Below are positions 1 through 21,278 of a stretch of DNA of 64,000 bases, one piece after another. Made by a program: the position numbers and the translations under genes. Source of the DNA: Sporosalibacterium faouarense (GTDB lineage: Bacteria > Bacillota > Clostridia > Tissierellales > VENL01); the NCBI RefSeq assembly GCF_016765695.1, contig NZ_JAETGO010000034.1, forward strand, positions 1 through 64,000. The letters run 5' to 3'. The notes below the pieces were generated by a model. That model had not been told where the DNA came from and searched no databases. It was given only the letters and a program-made list of their open reading frames with translations. Numbering within the stretch: position 1 is the first letter of the stretch; each line of letters begins with the position of its first letter.

Positions 1-3000
1 TATCCATAGGTGGTTTAGTTGGAAGTAACTACGGTGATATAGAAAATTGCTATGTGGAAGGTACTGTTGAAGGAGAAAGCTCCACAGGACTATTAGTAGG
101 ATTTAATGATGGGACAATAGAAAAATCGTATGCAAATGGTTCAGTAAAAGGAGATTCCGAATCCACAGGAGGCTTAGTGGGCTATAACTTCACAGGTACG
201 ATTAAAGAAACATATTCAGCTGGAAGTGTATACGGATCTAAGGATAACGTAGGAGGATTAGTAGGTCATAACTTTGCTGGTGATATCATAGATAGTTATT
301 CAACGGCAAGGGTAGAAGGAAGATATAATGTAGGTGGACTAGTTGGAGAGATGATTTCTGGCTCAATAACTAATTGCTATGCAATAGGCCAAGTATCCGA
401 TGGTAGAAATAATGTCGGTGGCTTGATTGGAGAAGCATTTGATATGGTAAGAATTGTAGATAGTTATTGGGATAGAATAGAGACAAATCAGGCATCATCA
501 AGCGGCGGAGAAGGAAAGCTTACAAAAGCATTATTAATGCAGGAATTTTATTCAAATTGGAGTTTTACAGATGTATGGACAATAGATGAGAATGAATCAT
601 ATCCATACTTTAAATGGCAGAATAAAAATATACCTGAAAAAAGTTTTGATTACTTTGTAGAAGGTAATGGTACAACTTCAAACCCATATATAATTACCAA
701 TTCAGAGGAATTAAACTTAGTTAGATACGAATTAGATGGACATTATAAACTTGGTAATGACATTAATTTAGCAAGTTATGGGCAATGGGAAACAATTGGA
801 ACAGATAAAACTGAGTTTAAGGGTAGTTTAGATGGAGATCGACATAAAATAATAAACTTAACTATAGATGCAGATAGTGATAATCAAGGATTGTTTGGAG
901 TTATTCATAAAACAGCTATAATCAAAAATATAGGTCTTGAAAATGTAAATGTATCAAATACAGACAATGAATACACAGGAGCATTGGCCGGAGAAAATCA
1001 CGGACTTATACAAAACACTTATGTTAAAGGTAGTGTTAAAGGTGAGAAATTTACTGGATTATTAGTAGGAGATAATGATGGGACAATAGAGACATCTTAT
1101 ACAGATGGCTCAATAGTTGGTGATTCTCATTATGTTGGCGGATTAGTAGGATATAACAGCGGTAATATAAATGAAACGTACTCAACTGGAAGTGTATATG
1201 GAGCAAAGAATAATGTAGGTGGATTAGTAGGAACTAACCGTGATGGAAGCATTGAAAACAGTTATTCGACAGCCAGTGTAGAAGGGAAACATGACGTAGG
1301 TGGATTAGTTGGAGAGGTTACTTCTGGAACAATAAATAATTGTTATTCAACAGGAGAAGTTACTGACATTGATAATAATGACGGACACGGTCATGATGGA
1401 CATTGGTTTGGTGAAAATAAGATCGGTGGATTAATTGGTAGTAAACACTTTATGGCAACAGTTAGAGATAGTTATTGGAATATAGATACATCAGGACAGA
1501 GAGATTCCGACGGTGGAATAGGCAAAACAACAACAGAAATGAAAAGCGAAGAAACATATAGGAATTGGAATTTCCAAGATGTCTGGAGTATTGATAGTAG
1601 AGGAAAGATAAACAATGGATACCCATGTATACAACAAATTATGCCTCCAACAATTACATTAAACGGAGAAACAGAGACTACATTGGAAGTTTTCTCAAGA
1701 TATATAGAAGAAGGGGCTGTAGTTACAGACATAGTAGAAGGAAATTTAACTAATAATTTAAAAATAATTGGATCAGTTGATACATCTATGCTTGGAGACT
1801 ACAAAATAACATATAAAGTTAGTGACAACATGGGAAATGAAGTAACAGAATATAGAACAATACATGTTGTAGACACAACTAAGCCAATAATCACTTTAAT
1901 AGGAGATGAAACTGTTCACCTTAATGTAGGTGATAACTATATAGAAGAGGGATCAATAGCTGAAGATAATTATGATGGAAACATTACAGATAATATTGAA
2001 ATATCTGGGGCAGTTGATACAAATATAGAAGGAACATATGAGATAAAATACAATGTTACTGATGATAATGGAAATATTGCCAATGAAGTTATAAGGACAA
2101 TAGTTGTGACATTGGGTATACCTGATAATTTAATGACTTCAGCTACTTCGGACAGTATAAATATATCATGGTTACCAGTGACTGGCGCAACAGGTTATGA
2201 TATAGAAGTTTATGGGTCAATAGTCGATGCTGGTGATAAAACAGAATATACCCATGAAGGACTTAATCCAAATACTCAGCTTACTTATAGAGTGAGAGCT
2301 AAAAGCTCAAGATCTGTCAGTAAGTGGAGTGGTATAGTTGCTCAAACTACTCTAACAGGTACACCTAAAAACATAGACGCAGAGGCTACAGATACAACTA
2401 TTGATTTATCATGGGATCCAGTATCAGGAGCAAAGGCATATGATATTGAGATAGATGGTGTAGTGTCAGAGATAATTGATAATAAATATCTTCACGATCA
2501 ATTATTGTCTAGCTCTGAACACAGTTATAGAATTCGATCTAAAAATGAGGAAGGAATAAGTGAGTGGAGTGAATTGTTCATAAAATCAACTTTACCATCC
2601 ATTCCATCTAATTTAAGCTCAGACATACAAATAAATGAAGTAACCTTAACTTGGGATGAAGTCCCTAGGGTAACAGGATATGAAGTAGAAATTAATGGCG
2701 AAGTTATAGAGAATGGAATGAGCAATACATATACAATCGACACAAATGAACCAAACAAAGAATATATCTTTAGAGTAAGGTCAAATAATGAAGGTTTAAA
2801 TAGTGGATGGAGTTCTCAAATTGTAGTAATTACTCCACCAGAAGAGCCAAAAAACTTAATAGCTACATCCTTAAGTACTCAAATTACTGTAAAGTGGGAT
2901 TCGGTGATTGGTGCAGAAGGATATGAGATAGAAATAGACGGAGAAGTATATGATGTTGGGTTAAAAACCACATATATGCATAGTAACTTAACACCAAATA

Positions 3001-4127
3001 CTGAATATTCTTATAGGATTAGATCTAAGAATAATGGCGGAATAAGTGAATGGAGTGAGAAGATAGTTGCAACGACATTGCTAAGTGTACCATCTAACCT
3101 TGGTGCTGTATCATCAAGTGATGGAATTTTTCTAACTTGGGATGATGTAGACGGAGCAGTTGGTTATGACGTGCTTGTAGATGGAGAAACAATTGATAAT
3201 GGGAATAGCACTGTCTTTGAGCATAAAGATCTTGAGCCTAATACTTGGCATTATTATAGAGTTAGGGCAAAACAGGGAGAGTATGTAGGGGATTGGAGTG
3301 ATAGTATCACCCAAGCTACCTTAGTTGGTATACCTACTAATATTCATACAAGTTCAAGTAGCTCAAAAATTATAGTAAAATGGGATACGGTAAATGGAGC
3401 AGAAGGTTATGATTTATTAGTAGATGGAGAATTGGTAGAGGATGTAGATTCTAGTAAATATAGACATGATGAACTTGATCCAGGTACAACTCATTCATAT
3501 AAAATAAGGGCTAAAAATTCAAATGGAATTAGTGATTGGAGTATATTAGTAAAACAAATAACTTCACCAGATATCCCTGATGATTTAGAAGCAGAAGCTA
3601 CAACTTCGGAAATTAGGATAGTTTGGGATGAAGTAGATGGAGCTTCAAGCTATGATATAGAGGTAGATGGAAAAGTAATCGAGGAATTAGATACTACTGA
3701 GTATATCCACAAGGATTTAGAACCTAATACTTGGCATTTATATAGAGTTAGGGCTAGAAATAATGGAGGCTATAGTGAATGGAGCGAAGAGCTACAGTAC
3801 AATACTAAGCCTGAAATTTCAGTAAATGTCGGTAAGGATACAACCTTTAATTTTGTAGTAGTAGCTCCAAAGAAAGATGGTGTAACCACAAGATATATAG
3901 AGGTTAATTATAATCCTGATGAATTAGAAGTAATTGATTTATGTGCTGTAACTCCAGAGGTTAATCTAGAGTCAGGAGATATAACTGGAACAAATATTTC
4001 AGTTACTAGTTTTGAGCCAGGTAGAATCACCTATAAGGTTACGGATGCAGATAAAACAATAGTAAATAGTATAAAATTCAAAGCCAAGGTAAGTAAGCAC
4101 TCTAAAGTAACTTATGAGGTGAAATAG
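1..4127 (+). CDS. Secreted GLUG / Ig-like / FN3 multidomain surface protein, 5' end outside window
   Basis: The frame is open from the first complete codon at nt 3, so the gene starts upstream of the window; the GTG at nt 54 lies inside a GLUG repeat and is not the start. Order seen: GLUG repeats (GGLVG-x-N pattern) to about nt 450, an 'NWSFTDVWTID' closing segment, a second complete GLUG module (about nt 650-1640), two DUF5011-like Ig domains (about nt 1640-2110), seven FN3 domains of about 80 residues (about nt 2115-3810; recurring 'YDIEVDG' and 'YRVRAK' strands), and a C-terminal beta-rich module resembling a cohesin fold ('YNPDELEVIDL'). No LPXTG motif, SLH domain or C-terminal membrane helix is present, so wall attachment is unexplained. 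GLUG and FN3 domains occur in extracellular adhesins and carbohydrate-binding proteins. It heads a block of five co-oriented exported-protein genes. The domain calls are firm; the biological role is inferred. Confidence 0.85.
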   Translation, partial: SIGGLVGSNYGDIENCYVEGTVEGESSTGLLVGFNDGTIEKSYANGSVKGDSESTGGLVGYNFTGTIKETYSAGSVYGSKDNVGGLVGHNFAGDIIDSYSTARVEGRYNVGGLVGEMISGSITNCYAIGQVSDGRNNVGGLIGEAFDMVRIVDSYWDRIETNQASSSGGEGKLTKALLMQEFYSNWSFTDVWTIDENESYPYFKWQNKNIPEKSFDYFVEGNGTTSNPYIITNSEELNLVRYELDGHYKLGNDINLASYGQWETIGTDKTEFKGSLDGDRHKIINLTIDADSDNQGLFGVIHKTAIIKNIGLENVNVSNTDNEYTGALAGENHGLIQNTYVKGSVKGEKFTGLLVGDNDGTIETSYTDGSIVGDSHYVGGLVGYNSGNINETYSTGSVYGAKNNVGGLVGTNRDGSIENSYSTASVEGKHDVGGLVGEVTSGTINNCYSTGEVTDIDNNDGHGHDGHWFGENKIGGLIGSKHFMATVRDSYWNIDTSGQRDSDGGIGKTTTEMKSEETYRNWNFQDVWSIDSRGKINNGYPCIQQIMPPTITLNGETETTLEVFSRYIEEGAVVTDIVEGNLTNNLKIIGSVDTSMLGDYKITYKVSDNMGNEVTEYRTIHVVDTTKPIITLIGDETVHLNVGDNYIEEGSIAEDNYDGNITDNIEISGAVDTNIEGTYEIKYNVTDDNGNIANEVIRTIVVTLGIPDNLMTSATSDSINISWLPVTGATGYDIEVYGSIVDAGDKTEYTHEGLNPNTQLTYRVRAKSSRSVSKWSGIVAQTTLTGTPKNIDAEATDTTIDLSWDPVSGAKAYDIEIDGVVSEIIDNKYLHDQLLSSSEHSYRIRSKNEEGISEWSELFIKSTLPSIPSNLSSDIQINEVTLTWDEVPRVTGYEVEINGEVIENGMSNTYTIDTNEPNKEYIFRVRSNNEGLNSGWSSQIVVITPPEEPKNLIATSLSTQITVKWDSVIGAEGYEIEIDGEVYDVGLKTTYMHSNLTPNTEYSYRIRSKNNGGISEWSEKIVATTLLSVPSNLGAVSSSDGIFLTWDDVDGAVGYDVLVDGETIDNGNSTVFEHKDLEPNTWHYYRVRAKQGEYVGDWSDSITQATLVGIPTNIHTSSSSSKIIVKWDTVNGAEGYDLLVDGELVEDVDSSKYRHDELDPGTTHSYKIRAKNSNGISDWSILVKQITSPDIPDDLEAEATTSEIRIVWDEVDGASSYDIEVDGKVIEELDTTEYIHKDLEPNTWHLYRVRARNNGGYSEWSEELQYNTKPEISVNVGKDTTFNFVVVAPKKDGVTTRYIEVNYNPDELEVIDLCAVTPEVNLESGDITGTNISVTSFEPGRITYKVTDADKTIVNSIKFKAKVSKHSKVTYEVK

Positions 4128-4156: not shown

Positions 4157-7100
4157 ATGAATCGGTCAAAAACAATTTTCATTTTAATAATAGCTATGGT
4201 TATTACATCTTTACCTATGAATGTCCACGCCGGAAGTGAATTAGACATTGTTTTCATAATTGATGAGTCTGGAAGTATGGGAAGCGATATTGCAGATGTA
4301 AGAAATCAGATAAAAAACTTTACAAGTAATTTACAAAATGAAGGAGTAAATTATAGGCTAGGGCTTATATCATATGAGGAAGATACAAGAGTATTTTCAA
4401 TGACTAGCAACGTTGAGAGCTTTAAGGATAACTTGGACAGTATAGATGTCCATGGGGGAGTAGAAAATGGGCTTGATGCTATTAATGATGCTATTGATAG
4501 ATATACCTATAGAACACATGCGATTAAATACTTTGTATTAATAGGAGACGAAGAGATTTATAGTGATCGTGGGTATAGAGATGACCAGACAATTCAAAGA
4601 CTTCAAAACAATGACATAATATTAACTTCTGTTTCAATTTCAAATAATCGTAGTCAGTTCAGAGAGTTTTCTGATGGAACAGATGGATTAACTTTAAATT
4701 TAAATAGTGGTTTTGGTAGAAATCTGACATCAATATTTGAACAAATACAAAACATTCCCAAATTAGAAGTTATTTCTCCTAGTGAAAATCAAATGTTGAG
4801 TGATTTTGATAGTTCATTTATTCCTAGGGTTATTGGTTCTGATGCAGATAGTGATGCATTAACATTTGAATATTATATTGATTCGGAAAGTACACCTAAA
4901 GATAGAAAATATATAACTAATACTGAAACAGAGCATACTGTTAACTTTGATGCAATAGATATTGGGCAACTTTCAGAAGGAAGCCATAGATTCAGATTTA
5001 AAGTATCTGATGGTAGTGATGAGGTAGAGCAAGAGGTCAATGTTACTATTGATAATCAGGCACCTTTATTAGGAAATGTTAACTTTGATTATTCAGATAC
5101 TGATATTAATATAAGTGGGTCTGCAACAGATAATATATCTGGATTGGCACATAATCCATATAGATATAGTATTAACGACAGTAGTAGTACTTGGACCTCT
5201 CAAACCAATTATGCATCAGATTTATTGAATCCAAACACTGAGTACCAAGTTAAATTTGAAGCTAGAGATGATGTGGGACATATTGCAAGTAAGATTGAAT
5301 CCATATGCACAAAATCTCAAATTCCAAATCTTATTGTTGAAAGTTCTAATGAAAACTCATTGGAAATTAGTTCTCAGGACGGAAATCCTTCAACGACAGA
5401 TTATCAAATTAAAGTAGGTGGGAATTATCTGGATTCAGATGGCAATACTGTTTCTAGTCCTACATGGATTAAGTTGAATAATAAGAGAATCACATTAATG
5501 GATTTGACGGTTAATACAAGCTATAATATACAAGCTAGAACTAGAAATCAAGAGAATATTAGTACTGAATTTTCTAATGAAATAACAGGAACAACCTTGG
5601 CAAAGCCACCCACTAATATTTCTTTAATACCTCAAAGGAATTCAATAGAAATATCATGGGAGGAAGTAGTTGGAGCGACGGAATATGAATTAATGGCTGA
5701 TGGGGAGATAATAAATAATGGAACAAGGACAAGCTATATACATAATAGCTTGTCTCCAGACTCTCAGCATAGCTACATGGTTAGAGCAAATAACTCAGGT
5801 GGTGCAGGGAATTGGAGTGAAGCATTCAATGAGGTGACATTACCTAATCCACCGTCTACACCTACTAATCTTGAGATTACACTATCACAGGAATCTATCT
5901 CAATAAATTGGGATGAAGTAATAGGAGCCACAGAGTATTTAATTGAAGTTGATGGAGCAGTAATTGAAAATGGGAAAAATATTACTTTTACACACGATAA
6001 TTTGCAACCTGAAACTGAGCATAGTTATAGAGTGAAAGCAATAAACCGTGGTGGTGAAAGTAACTGGACTGAATTGAGGACAGAAACTACATTACCATAT
6101 CCTCCAGAGATACCTACTAATGTGATGTTAGAAAAAACTAAAGATACAGTAACATTAACTTGGGACGAGATGGATAGAGCTACGAGCTATCAATTACAAG
6201 TAGATGGATTGATAATTGATAATGAAAATAAAACAACATTTGTACATGAAGGATTAGAGCCTTTATCTGGACATACCTATAAAATAAGAGCTGTTAATAA
6301 GGGCGGTAAAAGTTCGTGGACGGAGTCAATTGATGCGACAACAAACCCAGAGAAGCCAGATACTCCAGAAAATGTAATGGCTACATCTGAAGAAAACTCT
6401 ATAACAATAACTTGGTATAAGATTCTTAATTCAGAAAGTTACGATATAGAAGTAGATGGAAATGTGATAGAAGATATTACGGATACAGTATATATACATG
6501 ATGGTCTAGATCCTAATACAGAGCATGTTTATAGGGTAAGAGCCAAAAATATAACTGGTAAAAGTAATTGGAGTAAGCCATTAACAATGTTTACCTTGCC
6601 TGAAATAGATGAATCAAATGGAAACGTAGCATTAACAAATATAATAGCTATTGTCACTAATAATAAAATATCTCTTTCATGGGATGCTGTAGCAATGGGA
6701 GCTAAATATCAAATAGAAGTTGATGGTGAACTAAAAGATATAGGAGAAGATACGATATTTAATCATACAGGGTTAGAAGAAAATTCCTTCCATACCTACA
6801 AAATCAGATTTAAGGATGAAAATGGGACCAGTCAATGGTGTGGAGTTTTAGCATTAGCAACCTTACCGAATCCACCAGATGCTCCGAAAAATGTAGAAGT
6901 AACTACATTTGATAATATGATAGAGCTTAGATGGAATAAGATAGATGGTGCAACTGGATATGATGTAGAGATAGATGGTGAGACCATAGATAATGGAATA
7001 AATACTAGCTATACGCATGGTGAACTTGAGCCAGGTACATCTCATATATATAGAGTAAGGGCAAAAAACATTACAGGCATAACAGCTTGGAGTGATGCAA

Positions 7101-7456
7101 TAACAGAAAGTACCAGCAATCCAACATATAAGGTAAATTGTACTAAAGAAGAAGAATTCAATCTATCCCTTTTAGCCTCAAATGTACAGGACTTTACAGA
7201 TTTAAGATTTGTTGTTACTTATGATTCAAATGAAGTTGAGGTACTAGACTTATATAACTTTACACCAAATGAAGACTTAATTACAGAAGGGAAAATAGAA
7301 GGTACTAACATTTATGTGAAACATACACTGGGAAGAATAGAATTTTCAGTTGATAGAAATATAGTGCCAGGAACATCATGGTCTGGAGAAATATCAGACA
7401 TATTATTTAAATCTAAAATTGATGGAGAGAGTTATATAGATTATGTAGTCGAGTAA
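4157..7456 (+). CDS. Secreted von Willebrand factor A / FN3 protein
   Basis: I chose ATG 4157 over GTG 4151 because GAGGAG at 4143-4148 lies 8 nt before the ATG but only 2 nt before the GTG. Residues 1-25 are a signal peptide ending VHA. A VWA domain follows directly, with the MIDAS metal motif DESGS at residues 36-40, to about residue 200. Next come two beta-sandwich domains rich in Asp/Ser, about six canonical FN3 domains ('SWEEV', 'YRVRAKN' strands), and a C-terminal module of about 105 residues that matches the end of the preceding protein in plan ('YDSNEVEVLDL' against 'YNPDELEVIDL'). There is no sortase motif. VWA domains bind protein ligands through a divalent metal, so an adhesion or assembly role on the cell surface is plausible. 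The gap to the upstream gene is 29 nt and to the downstream gene 20 nt, suggesting one operon. Confidence 0.85.
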   Translation: MNRSKTIFILIIAMVITSLPMNVHAGSELDIVFIIDESGSMGSDIADVRNQIKNFTSNLQNEGVNYRLGLISYEEDTRVFSMTSNVESFKDNLDSIDVHGGVENGLDAINDAIDRYTYRTHAIKYFVLIGDEEIYSDRGYRDDQTIQRLQNNDIILTSVSISNNRSQFREFSDGTDGLTLNLNSGFGRNLTSIFEQIQNIPKLEVISPSENQMLSDFDSSFIPRVIGSDADSDALTFEYYIDSESTPKDRKYITNTETEHTVNFDAIDIGQLSEGSHRFRFKVSDGSDEVEQEVNVTIDNQAPLLGNVNFDYSDTDINISGSATDNISGLAHNPYRYSINDSSSTWTSQTNYASDLLNPNTEYQVKFEARDDVGHIASKIESICTKSQIPNLIVESSNENSLEISSQDGNPSTTDYQIKVGGNYLDSDGNTVSSPTWIKLNNKRITLMDLTVNTSYNIQARTRNQENISTEFSNEITGTTLAKPPTNISLIPQRNSIEISWEEVVGATEYELMADGEIINNGTRTSYIHNSLSPDSQHSYMVRANNSGGAGNWSEAFNEVTLPNPPSTPTNLEITLSQESISINWDEVIGATEYLIEVDGAVIENGKNITFTHDNLQPETEHSYRVKAINRGGESNWTELRTETTLPYPPEIPTNVMLEKTKDTVTLTWDEMDRATSYQLQVDGLIIDNENKTTFVHEGLEPLSGHTYKIRAVNKGGKSSWTESIDATTNPEKPDTPENVMATSEENSITITWYKILNSESYDIEVDGNVIEDITDTVYIHDGLDPNTEHVYRVRAKNITGKSNWSKPLTMFTLPEIDESNGNVALTNIIAIVTNNKISLSWDAVAMGAKYQIEVDGELKDIGEDTIFNHTGLEENSFHTYKIRFKDENGTSQWCGVLALATLPNPPDAPKNVEVTTFDNMIELRWNKIDGATGYDVEIDGETIDNGINTSYTHGELEPGTSHIYRVRAKNITGITAWSDAITESTSNPTYKVNCTKEEEFNLSLLASNVQDFTDLRFVVTYDSNEVEVLDLYNFTPNEDLITEGKIEGTNIYVKHTLGRIEFSVDRNIVPGTSWSGEISDILFKSKIDGESYIDYVVE

Positions 7457-7476: not shown

Positions 7477-8385
7477 TTGAGGACTTTAATTGGCAATACT
7501 AAAAGGTTTATAATTTCTTTGCTAGTGATAACCCTCTTAATTCCTCTTGTAATTACAGGATTAAGCGCTGGAGGATTTAATGGAGATGATTTAAGGATTG
7601 CTACAGAAATATCAAACCTCACAGGAGTAGATATTAATAGAGTACTTGAACTGAAAAGCATAAGAGGGTCCTGGAATCAAGTATTAGATATGTTGAGAAG
7701 TGAAAAAAGCAGACAAAAGTCAAAGGATAAAAGAAGCAATGGTATCTTACAATCAAGTGTGAGTGACAAATTTGTGAAAAAATTGATTGATGAAGGTAAT
7801 ACAGAAGCTGATGTAATGGATGCTAAAATGCTAGTAGAAAAAGTTATTTACCAATTAAATGAGATTACAAATAGTGTGGCAGAAACGGTTTCAGTAAGTA
7901 ATGCAGTGATAGGAGAAGATGGTGAAAATAATGATATAGCTCAGTACGTCAATTTAAAGAATAAGATAGATATGGAAACAGCTATTTCTGTAATATTAAA
8001 GCTTCAAGATAAGTACGATACAATCGAAACTGCGTTAAATGAATATTTGTACTCATTACAGCTCGACATAAATTTAGAAGATTATATCAATAATCAAGAA
8101 AAATACGAAGAAGAAAAAGAAAAGAAAAGAATGGAGATAAACTTAACTCAAATAATAACACTTTCAGAGATAGAAAGTGAGGTATTAGCAAAAATACAAA
8201 GGGAAAATGAAGAACAGTTAAGTTTGGGGAAAAGTAGCCTTGAAGCTGAAGGAGAGCCATTAGAAAATAATTTATATAATGAAAATTTAGATGTACCAAA
8301 TGTTAGTGTAGAGGATGTAAAGCCTTTGAATCCTACAGAAGAGCTAATGAATGAGATAAGGGTTATTAACCCAAATGAAAACTAG
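7477..8385 (+). CDS. Exported helical-repeat protein of unknown function (RHS operon)
   Basis: The TTG start is supported by AGAAGGAGAG at 7461-7470. The protein has 302 residues, with a hydrophobic export signal over about residues 10-31. No named family is recognised. After the signal, a helical unit reads 'DLRIATEISNLTGVDINRV' and runs into 'GSWNQVLDML'; a second partial unit starts 'FVKKLIDEGNTEADVMDA'. The same plan, xxLIxEGxxxxDxxxA followed by GxxWxxI, occurs three times in the next protein. The C-terminal third is charged and Asn/Glu-rich with possible coiled coil. It lies between the VWA/FN3 gene and the RHS gene with gaps of about 20 nt, so a role in export, folding or display of those giant proteins is possible but is inference. 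Confidence 0.75.
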   Translation: MRTLIGNTKRFIISLLVITLLIPLVITGLSAGGFNGDDLRIATEISNLTGVDINRVLELKSIRGSWNQVLDMLRSEKSRQKSKDKRSNGILQSSVSDKFVKKLIDEGNTEADVMDAKMLVEKVIYQLNEITNSVAETVSVSNAVIGEDGENNDIAQYVNLKNKIDMETAISVILKLQDKYDTIETALNEYLYSLQLDINLEDYINNQEKYEEEKEKKRMEINLTQIITLSEIESEVLAKIQRENEEQLSLGKSSLEAEGEPLENNLYNENLDVPNVSVEDVKPLNPTEELMNEIRVINPNEN

Positions 8386-8402
8386 ATAAGGAGATGACTA
8401 AA

Positions 8403-9245
8403 ATGAACAGAAAGAAAGTATCCAGATTTTTATTGGTTATGTTAATGGTATGCGCAACACTGCAAATTGGAGCAATATCTTATTCCAGCGCTGCTAAACA
8501 ATTAAATGGAAGCATTAATGAAACTTCTGAAAATCAAAAAATTGAGGATATAGAAATTTCTCAAGAAATACTAAATTTTATAAAAGATGCAGACCCAGGT
8601 GATTACGGTACGAATGTAACCAATTACAAAAAAGCATTAATAGAATTAGGAATCCAACCAAGATTTAAATCTGAAATTGAAAGACTAATCAAAGAAGGCC
8701 ATAGCTTACCAGATTTATTAATTGCCTATGAGTTCTTATATAATAATTTTGGAAAAATGGAAGAACTTGAAATATTAAGTAACAAAAAACAGTCAGGTAA
8801 ATCGTGGTCAAAAATCTTTGCTACATATCAATCAGAAAATGGAGAGTTCATTCCAAATTCCTTTGACCCTCAATACTTACAGGACTTAATGAGAGAAGAA
8901 TATATTACTCCTGATGACATTATGATAGCAGATAGAATTGCATATAAACTAGGGCTTGAGCATAAGGATATAATTTCCTATAGATTTGATGGGATAGAGT
9001 GGAAAAAGATAAACGAAGATTTAGGAATTTTAAATAGCCAAAGTGAATTACCTAGGGTAAAAGTAACAGAGGAACAGTTAGACAAGCTTACTAATCAGTA
9101 TAATTTATCTGAAGAAGAAATTATAGAAGCATTAGTAATCGCTGAAAGAATAGATAAAGATTCAAAGGAAATAATTGAAAAAATAAAATCAGGTTACAGT
9201 GAAGTTGAAATTCTCGCTGAATGCTATCAAGAAAAGTATTATTAG
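8403..9245 (+). CDS. Exported protein with three helical GxxWxxI-type repeats (RHS operon)
   Basis: ATG 8403 is preferred to ATG 8394: AAGGAG at 8388-8393 touches the first ATG but sits 9 nt before the second. The 280-residue product has a signal peptide to about residue 31 ending near SSAA. Three related units begin near residues 90, 157 and 225, with starts 'EIERLIKEGHSLPDLLIA', 'YLQDLMREEYITPDDIMIA' and 'QLDKLTNQYNLSEEEIIEA'. The first two end in a Trp motif ('GKSWSKI', 'GIEWKKI'); the third has Tyr ('GYSEVEI'). The preceding protein shares the unit, so the two are diverged relatives. The RHS gene starts 46 nt later. No known family name can be given. Partnership with the RHS protein is inferred from operon position only. 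Confidence 0.75.
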   Translation: MNRKKVSRFLLVMLMVCATLQIGAISYSSAAKQLNGSINETSENQKIEDIEISQEILNFIKDADPGDYGTNVTNYKKALIELGIQPRFKSEIERLIKEGHSLPDLLIAYEFLYNNFGKMEELEILSNKKQSGKSWSKIFATYQSENGEFIPNSFDPQYLQDLMREEYITPDDIMIADRIAYKLGLEHKDIISYRFDGIEWKKINEDLGILNSQSELPRVKVTEEQLDKLTNQYNLSEEEIIEALVIAERIDKDSKEIIEKIKSGYSEVEILAECYQEKYY

Positions 9246-9291: not shown

Positions 9292-12200
9292 GTGAAGGGA
9301 ATATACAAATTACTACTTATTTTAAGCATATTCACAATTTTTCTTCCTATTCAAGGAGTTAACGCAGATACTCTTGAGGAATATATGAATAATGTTGTAG
9401 GGCCGAAGAAACAGTACGATACAGAATTATCACCAGTTTACTTAAAAAGCAACCTATCGAAGGAAAATATAAGTCCAAATAGTGGAGAGCTGACATTAAC
9501 ACAAACAGATTATTCATTACCTGGACGAAATGGTTTAGATTTGGAAATAAAGAGAATATATAAGAGTGGAACATCAAATGTTCAAGAGATGAAGGTTAAA
9601 TATGTAAATGGTGCATGGGTAGATTATGTGGAATCCAATGAAAAAACATCTTCATTTTATGAAGATAGATATAATCTAGGTGTAGGAACAAGATTTTCTT
9701 TTCCTAGTATAGAAGTTAGAGAGAGCAAAGATGGTAATAAGAATATGTTTTTACATACAGACACTGGAGCAGTATATACTCTACAAGATGTATTGATGGA
9801 TGATGAACTTACCTATATTTTGCAAGGACAGACTGTAAATGATGTATATGTTAGAGAATCATCTGAGTTTAATAATGGTCAAAGTGAAGGAACTTCAAAA
9901 TATGTAATGATGGGCAAAGATGGCAAAAAGACATATTTTGATTCCGAAGGAAAAATATTAGGAATAGTAGATAGATATGATAATACCATTACATTTCAAT
10001 ATTCAACTTTATCTTATGAAATTGATGGCACAGAAATATCTAAAAAATTAATATCCAAAATTATAGATACAGTTGGTAGAGAAGTAACCATAGAATATAA
10101 AGAGGATTATAATTTCACAGTTAGTGCAAAACAAAATCAACAATATAGTAAGGATGAAAGCTATAAAGCATCACAGGACCCAAATAGTACTGATTCTGGA
10201 GATCTTAATAATAAATTTCAGGTAATAATAAATTTACCTGGAGATAAAAAAATAGTCTATGATAAATCGGCAGTCTTAGTAAGTGATTCTAAAAAAGTAA
10301 TAAGGACAAGGCTTCAAAGAGTATATGATATAGATGGTAAGCCTAAATATCATTTTTGGTATGAACAACCTAAATTAGGTTTTACTTTTATGAATGGTGA
10401 CGATTATTCAGTTTATAATGGATATGAAAATCTAGTACAAATAGATTACTGTAAAACTAATAAAGTTACCAGATATACCTATGATACATTTGCTAAAAGA
10501 CTTAATGAAGGAAGTATGGAGTATCGAAAGATATTTCAAAGAAAAGACTTTGCTAAGAAGGACTTCGATAGTACACAAAATAAGTTTTTAGACAAATTTG
10601 TATTAGAAGAGAAGGACAAAACTGACTATGAATATATAAATGAATCCGATGGATATGGTGAAGAAGATTATGAACGATATAATAATGATTATTTAGAGAA
10701 TAGCTATAGATATTACACTAAAATCACAGATATGAAGGGTAACGAGACTAATTATACATATGATGGACTTCATCAGCTTAAAGAAACATTAATAAATGGA
10801 GATGACTATAAAGAAGTAATCACTACAGAACATGATGAGATGAAGTTAATTAAGAAGAAGGAAAGTCTTATATTTAATATACAAGATGGGGAAGACGTAG
10901 GTACTCCTATTAAGAAAACACAAAACTATAGATATGATGAATATGGTAATCTAACTAATTATACGGGTCCAGAAGCAGAAAGAGATGAGGATGGAAACCC
11001 TATAAATGACGAGCATATGGTCACTTATTCCTATGCATATGATAAGTATCATGTGTTAACATCAAAGACTTGGAAACAGGATAAAGACACTACATCTCAG
11101 ATATTATATGATGTTGATGATAATGGAAATGTAATAAAGGAAACAAAACAAAATACCCAGGGATATAATCAATCAATAGTTATAGAATATAACTATGATG
11201 AATATGGTAATATGATAAAATCAATAAAACACTCTAGTGATAGAAACTATATTACTAATTATGATTATGGAATAGATGCAGATGGCGTAGACCATAAGGG
11301 TGCATACTTAACTAAGAAGTATACAGTATTAGATAATGGAGAGATATCAGAAAAGTACGCTTATGATAGAAACACTGGAAATATAACAGCAGAAATTAAT
11401 CCAGATGGAAAGAGAACAGAATATCAGTATGATACATTAGGAAGACTTTTAGAAACAAAACGACCTGATTTAACGACTAAAGAGTACAAATACAATGAGT
11501 TTAAATATAAAAATAGGGAAATAGAGTATACAGATTCCAATGAGGATCGTTATAAAAAGGAATACGATATATTTGGAAACTTAGTAAAATCAAGTGTATA
11601 CGATAAAGAAAATGAGGAATGGACAGTTCTTAAAAGGATAGAGTATGATAATGATGGTAACAAGACAAAGGAAGTAGATTCTAATGGGAATAGCGTTAGA
11701 TATGAGTATGATAGCGCAAATAGGCTTATTAAAAAAGCCTTTTATAAAAATGACCAAATATTAACAGGAGATAAGGATTTTAGTTACATAATAGGTTATG
11801 ATGACGATACTGCTTTATTAGTTGAAGCAACAGATGAAGAAGGATATAAAACAAAAAATTATTTCGATATATTAGACAACTTATTTAGAGTAGAGGCTAC
11901 ACCTGATAATAAAAACTATTTTGTTACATCATATACCTATGATTATGTTGGTAATAAAACAAGCACAACAGACCCTAAACTAAACAAAATACAATATGAG
12001 TTTGATAAATTAGGGAGAATGGTAAAGAAGGTTGATCCAGAGCTTAATGAAACTACATATGTCTATAATAGCTTAAACAAGGTAGTCATAGCAGAAGAGC
12101 CTGGGGGTAGAATCACAAAGTATAAATATGATGAATTGGGCAGGAAGATAGAGGCATGGATATTCCCAAAAACCTCAGAAGGTTATCTTTCAAATGACTA

Positions 12201-19416: not shown

Positions 19417-19821
19417 TTGAAGAAAAACATTATATTATTGATAATAATTATAACAAATGTATTAGCGTCTACTGGATGTCAGAATAAAGAATTTGATGCT
19501 TTTTCTGAGAAGTTTGAAGATATATACTTTAATACAGTTAAGTCTATTGATAGTTCCAATACTTTGAAAAGCCTAGAAGGTTTACAGTCTGAAGAGAAAA
19601 AACAGGAGATTGAGAAATTGGGTTTGCTATTAGAAAATATTAGAGAGAAAGTATCTAAAGAGAATAAAAATCAGTATGATAGATATGTGAAATGGTACAA
19701 TGGACTTTTATTATTGAGAAATTCATATGATAGCTGGGAAAGTTTTGATGTTCATGAAAAAGCAGAAATAGGTACTGAATTTGTATTAATAAGTCTTAGA
19801 AAACGTAATAAAAATGAATAA
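19417..19821 (+). CDS. Small putative lipoprotein, candidate immunity protein of the RHS C-terminus
   Basis: The TTG start is placed 9 nt after ATGGAGG (19401-19407). The 134-residue product has a hydrophobic leader ending in 'LASTGC', a weak but plausible lipobox, so it is probably membrane-anchored on the outer face. The rest is charged and helical, with no recognised domain. A truncated paralogue lies 1.1 kb downstream (nt 20497), sharing the pattern 'F..F..IY..T..S..S.N...S'. Immunity proteins typically sit directly after an RHS toxin gene and are duplicated with discarded toxin tips; that pattern, not homology, supports the suggestion. It is followed 13 nt later by a membrane-protein gene. 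Confidence 0.7.
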   Translation: MKKNIILLIIIITNVLASTGCQNKEFDAFSEKFEDIYFNTVKSIDSSNTLKSLEGLQSEEKKQEIEKLGLLLENIREKVSKENKNQYDRYVKWYNGLLLLRNSYDSWESFDVHEKAEIGTEFVLISLRKRNKNE

Positions 19822-19834
19822 TGGAGGACTTCAT

Positions 19835-20272
19835 ATGAATAAAATAAACACGAAAGACTACATAGTTCTAATTGCAGTATGGGTTATTAATATAGCTATT
19901 AAGTTATATTTAGATGTAGCTTATTGGTATTACATCGATTACTTTGAGCTTTTAACTTTCTTCATTTCAATTGCTTTGTACACTTTTATATTAATTTATT
20001 ATTTAGAATATAAGTATAAGAAACTGATACTAATGTATGCAATTTTATTCAGCATATGGACAATCTATTGGCCTATATCAGGATATCATCTTTTTAACCA
20101 TTTAATGGCTTATAGTGGGATCAGTGCTATAGTGACTGCTGTATTAAACTATCTTTATATAAGAAACAAAAATAATGTAGTTAACTTACTTTCAAAGAAC
20201 CTTCTTATAGCTTCTTTTATAGGAATAGGGTATGTTGCAATATTTGTGATAATATTATATATATTTGTATAG
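19835..20272 (+). CDS. Small integral membrane protein, possible immunity or accessory protein
   Basis: ATG 19835 is preferred to ATG 19814 because GGAGG at 19823-19827 lies 7 nt before it and because the earlier start would overlap the upstream gene. The product has 145 residues with about four hydrophobic helices ('IVLIAVWVINIAI', 'LLTFFISIALYTFILIYYL', 'LILMYAILFSIWTIYW', 'IGYVAIFVIILYIFV'). No family is recognised. Its tight coupling (13 nt) to the small lipoprotein behind the RHS gene makes joint function likely. A membrane immunity protein would fit a membrane-active toxin tip, but this is inference. Confidence 0.65.
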   Translation: MNKINTKDYIVLIAVWVINIAIKLYLDVAYWYYIDYFELLTFFISIALYTFILIYYLEYKYKKLILMYAILFSIWTIYWPISGYHLFNHLMAYSGISAIVTAVLNYLYIRNKNNVVNLLSKNLLIASFIGIGYVAIFVIILYIFV

Positions 20273-20909: not shown

Positions 20910-20969
20910 CTTGCAAAAAAATGTAAAAAGCAACCCCCGAAGGGATTGCTTTTGGTGTATAATTTATTT

Positions 20970-21278
20970 ATGCGAATAAACAAACATACACCTCAAAATT
21001 ATATCAATATTAATAAAGATTATCAACTAGTTTTACCTATAAATTCTGAAGTTTTGATTCCACAGGATGATTCCGTGAGATTGCTTAGCCAAGTATTGGA
21101 GGGGTTAAAGTATGATAAATTAATGCAAGCATACTTACACCTAGGAAGAAAACCTGTGGTTTCACCGAAGAATTTATTCAAAGTTTTAGTCTATTCTTAC
21201 ATGAATAATATTTATTCAAGTAGAGAAATAGAGAAAACCTGTAAAATGAAAAAAAGGTGTCTCAACAATGATTTTTAA
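20970..21278 (+). pseudogene. IS1182-family transposase, N-terminal fragment
   Basis: From ATG 20970 the frame encodes about 102 residues typical of the IS1182 transposase start (DUF772): 'YQLVLPINSEVLIPQDDSVR', 'GRKPVVSPKNLFKVLVYSYM' and 'NNIYSSREIEKTCK'. After the last motif the sequence jumps into the right terminal repeat and ends in a stop formed by it. The DDE catalytic core is absent, so this is a non-functional remnant. Confidence 0.75.

Follow-up and report, generated by a model that had tools for sequence, protein, structure and literature searches.

Two exported helical-repeat proteins encoded directly upstream of giant RHS genes are probable helpers of the RHS toxin

In the window analysed here (64,000 nucleotides of Sporosalibacterium faouarense, contig NZ_JAETGO010000034.1), two exported proteins, designated P1 and P2, are encoded directly before a giant secreted RHS/YD-repeat protein. 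Since relatives are found in the same place in many bacteria, P1 and P2 are probably dedicated helpers of RHS toxins, previously unnamed. That they serve the RHS protein as a dedicated partner is, in our assessment, very probable. The fuller explanation that we favour, and consider reasonably likely, is that they act outside the cytoplasm as dedicated partners (a cap, a chaperone or a tether) for the Sec-exported RHS protein encoded next. The way of RHS/WapA proteins of more than 300 kDa through the Gram-positive wall is described as not identified (PMC12704120), and the export, folding, closure and attachment of these giant proteins is the question on which P1 and P2 bear. A two-protein helper beside the toxin in Clostridia and Paenibacillaceae, conserved unlike the toxin tip, makes this question testable. 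The pair also provides a simple genomic marker for this RHS toxin class, and a repeat absent from the family libraries searched (Pfam, NCBIfam) gains a name.

P1, P2 and the RHS gene form one same-strand block, with gaps of 17 bases between P1 and P2 and 46 bases between P2 and the RHS gene (Table 1). The RHS protein is composed, in order, of a signal peptide, a DUF6531-like start, YD repeats, an RHS core end near residue 2874, a peptidoglycan-binding domain and a variable tip, and it matches RHS_repeat, PG_binding_1 and DUF6531 in a Pfam scan. With its signal peptide, its YD/RHS repeats, a conserved core end and a C-terminal tip that varies, it has the features of a WapA/RHS polymorphic toxin.

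Table 1. Features of the P1-P2-RHS block and of the genes preceding it (positions in the window)
Feature	Position	Strand	Basis
GLUG/Ig/fibronectin-III surface protein, upstream end of block	54..4127	+	family scan
VWA and fibronectin-III surface protein, directly 5' of P1	4151..7456	+	family scan
Cohesin-like C-terminal domain of the VWA/fibronectin-III protein	7094..7453	+	PF00963 in 10 of 16 homologues, best 5.9e-8; window copy below PF00963 cut-off
P1, exported, 302 aa, TTG start; one short unit and a half unit, then helical C-terminal part	7477..8385	+	ORF list, 25-member family, AlphaFold2 model
Hydrophobic segment at the P1 N-terminus, lacking an [AVST]-x-A site; may be a membrane anchor	7504..7563	+	heuristic
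P1 unit a, residues 34-78; best counterpart P2 unit B	7576..7710	+	profile score 48.2, shuffle maximum 16.2
P1 half unit b, residues 96-140	7762..7896	+	against P2 unit C, score 24.8, shuffle maximum 20.1
P1 conserved C-terminal tail, ..DVKPxNPxxxxMxEIxxINP..	8284..8382	+	P283, N285, P286 and E293 invariant in 25 sequences
P2, exported, 280 aa from ATG 8403 (ORF start 8394/8403); three four-helix units	8403..9245	+	ORF list, 25-member family, AlphaFold2 model
P2 unit A, predicted helices 86-97, 102-114, 120-130, 135-146	8658..8840	+	profile scores, AlphaFold2 model
P2 unit B, predicted helices 156-164, 170-183, 187-195, 200-207	8868..9023	+	profile scores, AlphaFold2 model
P2 unit C, predicted helices 223-233, 237-249, 254-262, 267-279; without W	9060..9239	+	profile scores, AlphaFold2 model
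Giant secreted RHS/YD-repeat protein, 3335 aa	9292..19299	+	ORF list, family scans
DUF6531-like segment of the RHS protein, residues 58-95, just behind the signal peptide	9463..9576	+	E 3.7e-4, below Pfam cut-off

The repeat unit of P1 and P2

P1 and P2 have in common a repeat unit of about 55 residues, present as three units in P2 and as one short unit plus a half in P1. A loose form of its first motif, LI.EG....D...A..I, was found at residue 103 of P1 and residues 95, 162 and 229 of P2 (four matches compared to a shuffle mean of 0.14; 0 of 2000 shuffles reached four). The second motif, G(x)W..[IV], likewise in a loose form, was found at residue 64 of P1 and residues 132 and 197 of P2 (three matches compared to 0.06; 1 of 2000 shuffles reached three). 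The exact first pattern of the initial annotation gave only one match, in P1, and the tryptophan is absent from the third P2 unit (..SGYSEVEI..).

Unit profiles built from 25 homologues per protein (alignments A7 for P2 and A8 for P1) were compared with each other and with 60 column-shuffled controls. L037, a near copy of L036, was omitted from the alignments, as was the P2 piece of L034 from A7; the P2 N-termini of L031, L039 and L041 are shorter, and the P1 of L039 is clipped by the end of the locus. Scores exceeded all shuffles for P2 A–P2 B (33.9, shuffle maximum 20.0), P2 B–P2 C (30.4, 13.9) and P2 A–P1 a (25.5, 18.1), in addition to the two pairs scored in Table 1. The pairs P2 A–P1 b (15.8, 14.8) and P1 a–P1 b (15.4, 13.4) lay just above their shuffles, and P2 A–P2 C (11.7, 13.7) did not exceed them; judged by these scores, unit C is tied to unit A through B only. 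The whole P2 profile matched that of P1 with a probability of 96.2 and a P value of 2.3e-9 over about 105 columns (P2 160-263, P1 26-136). At the level of sequence comparison, descent of P1 and P2 from a common repeat is thereby shown.

The AlphaFold2 model of P2 (mean pLDDT 89.0, pTM 0.78) places its helices in residues 86-146, 156-207 and 223-279, three predicted four-helix blocks that coincide with the three units. The model of P1 was only moderate (pLDDT 75.1, pTM 0.50). Neither window protein had a match at the curated cut-offs of Pfam or NCBIfam, and among the 25 homologues of each, family matches were scattered over one or two members only (the NCBIfam run covered the P2 homologues). 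Searching PDB sequences with P2 returned designed helical barrels and toroids (9r2b, E 7e-6), and with P1 one designed protein (8vl3, E 0.018), matches that were taken as generic helix-hairpin similarity. Among the matches listed, Foldseek gave none for P2 below E 0.04, and VIA-align none above Z 5.3 for P2 or Z 5.6 for P1. The structure-search matches were weak throughout, and many were designed helical repeats or UBA-like domains. The UBA-like three-helix SOUBA domain of UBAP1 aligned weakly with 51 residues of P1 (4ae4, Z 5.6, rmsd 3.0), and the UBA-like family PF09288 weakly matched 2 of the 25 P1 proteins. However, the P2 units have four predicted helices and sit in exported bacterial proteins, and the UBA-like scores may reflect only a common arrangement; they serve as leads and do not establish membership. 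A literature search found no description of the repeat family or of its link to RHS genes.

That P1 and P2 resemble each other only as generic amphipathic helices would agree with these weak structural matches and with the kinds of fold retrieved, but it is scarcely credible given the shuffle controls, the P values and the specific genomic partners described below; chance or generic similarity is refuted for the RHS-linked set. The initial annotation had read three units in P2 and one and a half in P1, derived from a common ancestor and representing an undescribed family. The unit count is borne out by the motif shuffles and profile scores, the common ancestry by the match between the two protein profiles, and within the scope of Pfam, NCBIfam and PDB sequences the family is indeed undescribed. 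The two checks it had proposed came out in the same sense: P2 is confidently predicted to fold into the repeat, not into unrelated folds, and the unit profile retrieved specific families from genomes, not random helices.

Association with RHS genes

The link to RHS genes had gone unnoticed in that annotation and is the informative part of the present analysis. It was seen with the repeat as the query. In an order-level search of 150 genomes, the two strong relatives (G018 and G041, the latter with a P2-like gene only) both lay directly upstream of an RHS start, and three further weak matches (E 0.003-0.009) were unrelated genes. A P2-profile search of 391 genomes of the class added only three strong matches, in G256, G431 and G207, with the same arrangement. 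A unit profile of 54 positions was then built from 38 units and no RHS sequence; on the window units it gave 6.5e-21 for P2 B, 5.1e-18 for P2 A and 6.5e-13 for P1 a, these units being among its own rows. It matched 15 of 341 class genomes. An RHS start directly follows the matched ORF, or the P2 of its pair, in 13 of them (the window genome, G256, G431, G207, G326 with two loci, G411, G176, G271, G376, G210, G254, G316 and G319). In G171 the match is a P1 gene at a contig end; that in G367, two short ORFs without an RHS gene, was taken as chance. An alignment of ten divergent P2-like proteins matched 256 columns of the P2 profile (P 1.2e-19), and these proteins are thus relatives of P2 along most of their length. 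No P1 was seen at the divergent P2-like loci.

The same association was obtained with the RHS protein as the query. A profile of the RHS start from six loci, with no repeat in it, was scanned against genome contigs and identified 26 loci, including loci in Paenibacillus, Cohnella, Ruminiclostridium, Alkaliphilus and Desulfosporosinus. P1 lies directly upstream in 25 of the 26, and a complete P2 is likewise present in 25; three loci (L022, L030, L042) were known beforehand from the P2 searches, and the rest give 22 of 23. The exception, L034, has a 107-aa piece of P2 and no P1, and is the second RHS locus of the assembly that contains L038. Within this assembly, L038 keeps both P1 and P2, as if the toxin copy at L034 had lost its helpers. 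The link to RHS persists where the rest of the operon differs, with other genes upstream in L003, L053 and L059.

The P1-P2-RHS arrangement is kept over great sequence distance. For the nine loci with all three proteins, the mean identity is 39% for P2, 33% for P1 and 66% for the N-terminal 450 residues of the RHS protein, and all align throughout. The identities of P2 and of the RHS N-terminus are modestly correlated (r 0.56, nine loci), which may only reflect descent. The RHS tips, compared at the 10 loci with a complete ORF and a recognised core end, showed any similarity in only 4 of 45 pairs. P1 and P2 share the conservation of the RHS start, not the variability of the toxin tip. This bears on the possibility that P1 and P2 are immunity proteins of the RHS toxin, which their position beside a polymorphic-toxin-like gene might suggest. 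Such a role is very improbable, since the two proteins are encoded upstream, are exported, accompany the RHS start and are conserved across unrelated tips; it is already contradicted by their lack of variation with the tip.

A census profile of the RHS start identified 55 places in 40 of 341 class genomes, and all 55 were inspected with their flanks. Of the 27 RHS genes with a short leader (at most 60 residues between the ORF start and the profile match), 26 are directly preceded by a P2-like ORF, with gaps of -46 to +100 bases, compared to 0 of 28 for RHS genes with longer leaders; the two groups were set after the leader data were seen. The window RHS protein has a leader of 32 residues. The one short-leader exception, L122, follows an RHS fragment. 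Seeds and places known from the repeat or P2 searches make up 14 of the 27, and the independent part is 12 of 13. The leaders of L090 and L110 reach the edge of the examined stretch, with no upstream sequence visible there. The presence of an upstream P2-like gene depends on the type of RHS leader.

Some of the long leaders contain subtilase or other domains. A subtilase-like part precedes the RHS region in L090 (by Pfam) and in L116-L120, L124 and L125 (by eye). When compared to the P2 superfamily profile, segments before DUF6531 in L090, L110 and L113 outscored their respective shuffles; a joint profile of L113 and L115 reached P 2.5e-4 (score 32.9, shuffle maximum 18.9); the order in L090 is subtilase, putative units, DUF6531. 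These fusion candidates are singly weak (P about 0.001-0.002) and were picked by eye among 28 leaders. L115 alone scored 18.8, within its shuffles, and most other long leaders were at or near theirs. L094, L099 and L101 scored higher, but through signal-peptide segments. Searches for more members with such fusions gave few, in 2 of 38, 2 of 70 and 1 of 14 genomes, each count including the genome of the query itself. The scores are suggestive of a few long leaders carrying repeat units in cis.

The unit also occurs away from RHS genes. In a phylum sample of 398 genomes, the unit profile matched 25; setting aside the window's own genome, an RHS start lies directly downstream in 6 of 24 (G910, G806, G795, G731, G703, G737), and in 18 of 24 no RHS start was found within the stretch examined at the inspected loci. 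Among the relatives without RHS genes, many are small and exported, and several have the motif in a GWGE[IV] form. Ten such proteins with units were noted (L138, L143, L144, L146, L147, L149, L151, L152, L153, L156). As a group, 16 RHS-less relatives matched P2 with P 2.9e-14. Eight phylum-sample proteins from both groups, including the RHS-less L138, L143, L144, L146 and L151, had no informative match in Pfam or NCBIfam. L143 just passes the Pfam cut-off for the Death domain (23.9 bits, cut-off 22.6); since L144, its sister, stays below it, this was interpreted as a similarity of helices.

The 18 genomes with no RHS start in the stretch examined weigh against confinement of the repeat to RHS loci. 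Since the RHS-less proteins are relatives of P2, the repeat as such cannot mean 'RHS binder'; it appears to be an ancient module found in exported proteins of Bacillota, and the branch linked to RHS genes is P1/P2. The suggestion that the repeat family is tied to this locus thus holds in part: the two-gene pair does go with RHS genes in Clostridia and Paenibacillaceae, but the unit itself extends to exported proteins elsewhere. One might then regard P1 and P2 as surface or wall proteins of general function that sit in the RHS operon without necessarily contacting the RHS protein, as the surface proteins encoded upstream and the exported relatives away from RHS genes would allow. We rate this as quite unlikely, given that the RHS link survives differing upstream genes (L003, L053 and L059 again) and follows the RHS leader type (26 of 27 compared to 0 of 28).

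Candidate roles and known systems

Export was assessed with a simple heuristic for a cleavage-like site after a hydrophobic stretch. Such a site was found in 14 of 15 and 18 of 22 RHS proteins (RHS signal peptides were counted at the 15 of 26 core loci with a matching start motif), in 8 of 25 P1, 15 of 25 P2 and 17 of 22 P2-like proteins. These counts suggest that P1 may stay in the membrane, and by the same heuristic the anchoring of P2 is ambiguous.

With P1 and P2 as partners of the RHS protein, we hypothesize that their repeat domain would bind, outside the membrane, to the N-terminal end of the RHS protein. At that site the domain would help the RHS chain of more than 300 kDa to fold into its closed shell, cap the open end of the shell, hold the RHS protein at the cell surface, or combine these roles. 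In other RHS families, this job falls to the protein's own fused N-terminal domain. P1, with its anchor-like N-terminus and conserved proline/asparagine tail, may connect the complex with the membrane or with the cohesin-like surface protein encoded upstream. Points against this explanation are that RHS proteins with long leaders do without P2, that P1 is absent from the divergent loci and from G041, and that the unit also occurs away from RHS genes. A bolder and doubtful version would make P2 a separate protein that caps the N-terminal end of secreted RHS shells in trans: a so far unrecognised Gram-positive RHS class would have split off its closing and anchoring domain, which was later duplicated to give P1 and which some relatives keep fused before DUF6531. 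In other exported proteins of Bacillota the repeat would provide a general scaffold for extracellular binding, and here it would also grip the cohesin-like protein.

The cohesin-like domain upstream of P1 resembles type-II cohesin scaffoldins in the PDB (best E 5e-4), and an alignable domain precedes the divergent P2-like genes of L076, L085 and L097. Clostridium alkalicellulosi scaffoldins are reported to join cohesin, dockerin, peptidase and RhsA modules (PMC6780208). By analogy, P1 and P2 could be surface-scaffold linkers whose helical repeats bind the upstream cohesin-like domain in dockerin fashion, hanging the RHS protein on the cell; no Pfam dockerin (PF00404) was found in the window genome or in G018, which would suit this role. 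We nevertheless consider it unlikely, as dockerins are present in 12 of the 14 genomes searched, and Pfam scans of the window P1 and P2 and of 25 homologues each gave no dockerin match.

A dedicated partner encoded beside an RHS gene would have parallels. EagR proteins, which carry an EagR/DUF1795-type domain, are cytoplasmic chaperones of the type VI secretion system (T6SS) whose clients have transmembrane prePAAR regions; there, the N-terminus of an Rhs toxin has a chaperone of its own, supplied by an adjacent gene. P1 and P2 are alike in being adjacent, dedicated candidate partners, but they are exported, and the EagR/DUF1795-type domain was absent from the Pfam matches of the 25 P2 and 25 P1 proteins. 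EagR proteins are described as chaperones of T6SS Rhs effectors in PMC7773334.

In Streptococcus suis, WapA is reported to depend on a cognate SecF-like protein and SrtB, both encoded upstream, and loss of the SecF-like gene or SrtB impairs killing (PMC12704120). Both loci encode a Gram-positive, Sec-exported Rhs/WapA toxin with accessory genes directly upstream. However, in S. suis the accessory genes encode a SecF-like membrane protein and a sortase, while the toxin brings a cell-wall domain of its own (PMC12704120). P1 and P2, in contrast, are helical-repeat proteins that have a single hydrophobic segment, and the leader of the RHS protein is bare. Lap1 and Lap2 (DUF3130, DUF3958), described as targeting factors of LXG toxins, are small helical partners that are encoded with a polymorphic toxin and bind its conserved N-terminal part (PMC9600955). 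They differ in belonging to type VII secretion with an LXG domain, compared to a Sec signal peptide and larger exported repeat proteins here; no LXG domain was found by Pfam in the window RHS protein, which places it outside the LXG-Lap systems. Several Rhs families are reported to close the N-terminal end of the shell with a domain of their own, namely the RhsA plug, the Tc beta-propeller and the teneurin FN-plug (PMC8765631). Closure at this end is the job proposed for P2, but those domains are cis fusions and not of the helical-repeat kind, and P2 would act in trans. P1 and P2 would be a further, unrelated solution beside plugs, WapA helpers and LXG partners.

Several minor observations concern the region downstream of the RHS genes. 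RHS-like ORF pieces lie 3' of the complete RHS gene in L022 (14760-15449), L023 (20418-20885), L030 (20806-21156) and L040 (20643-21425); judged by eye, they fit what displaced toxin tips would look like. In the window, family scans gave no informative match for the RHS tip or for the two small genes 3' of the RHS gene. These two ORFs (19417-20272), a possible lipoprotein and a possible membrane protein, are candidate immunity genes. They are followed at 20946-21278 by an apparently truncated ORF of 110 aa that may be transposase-like.
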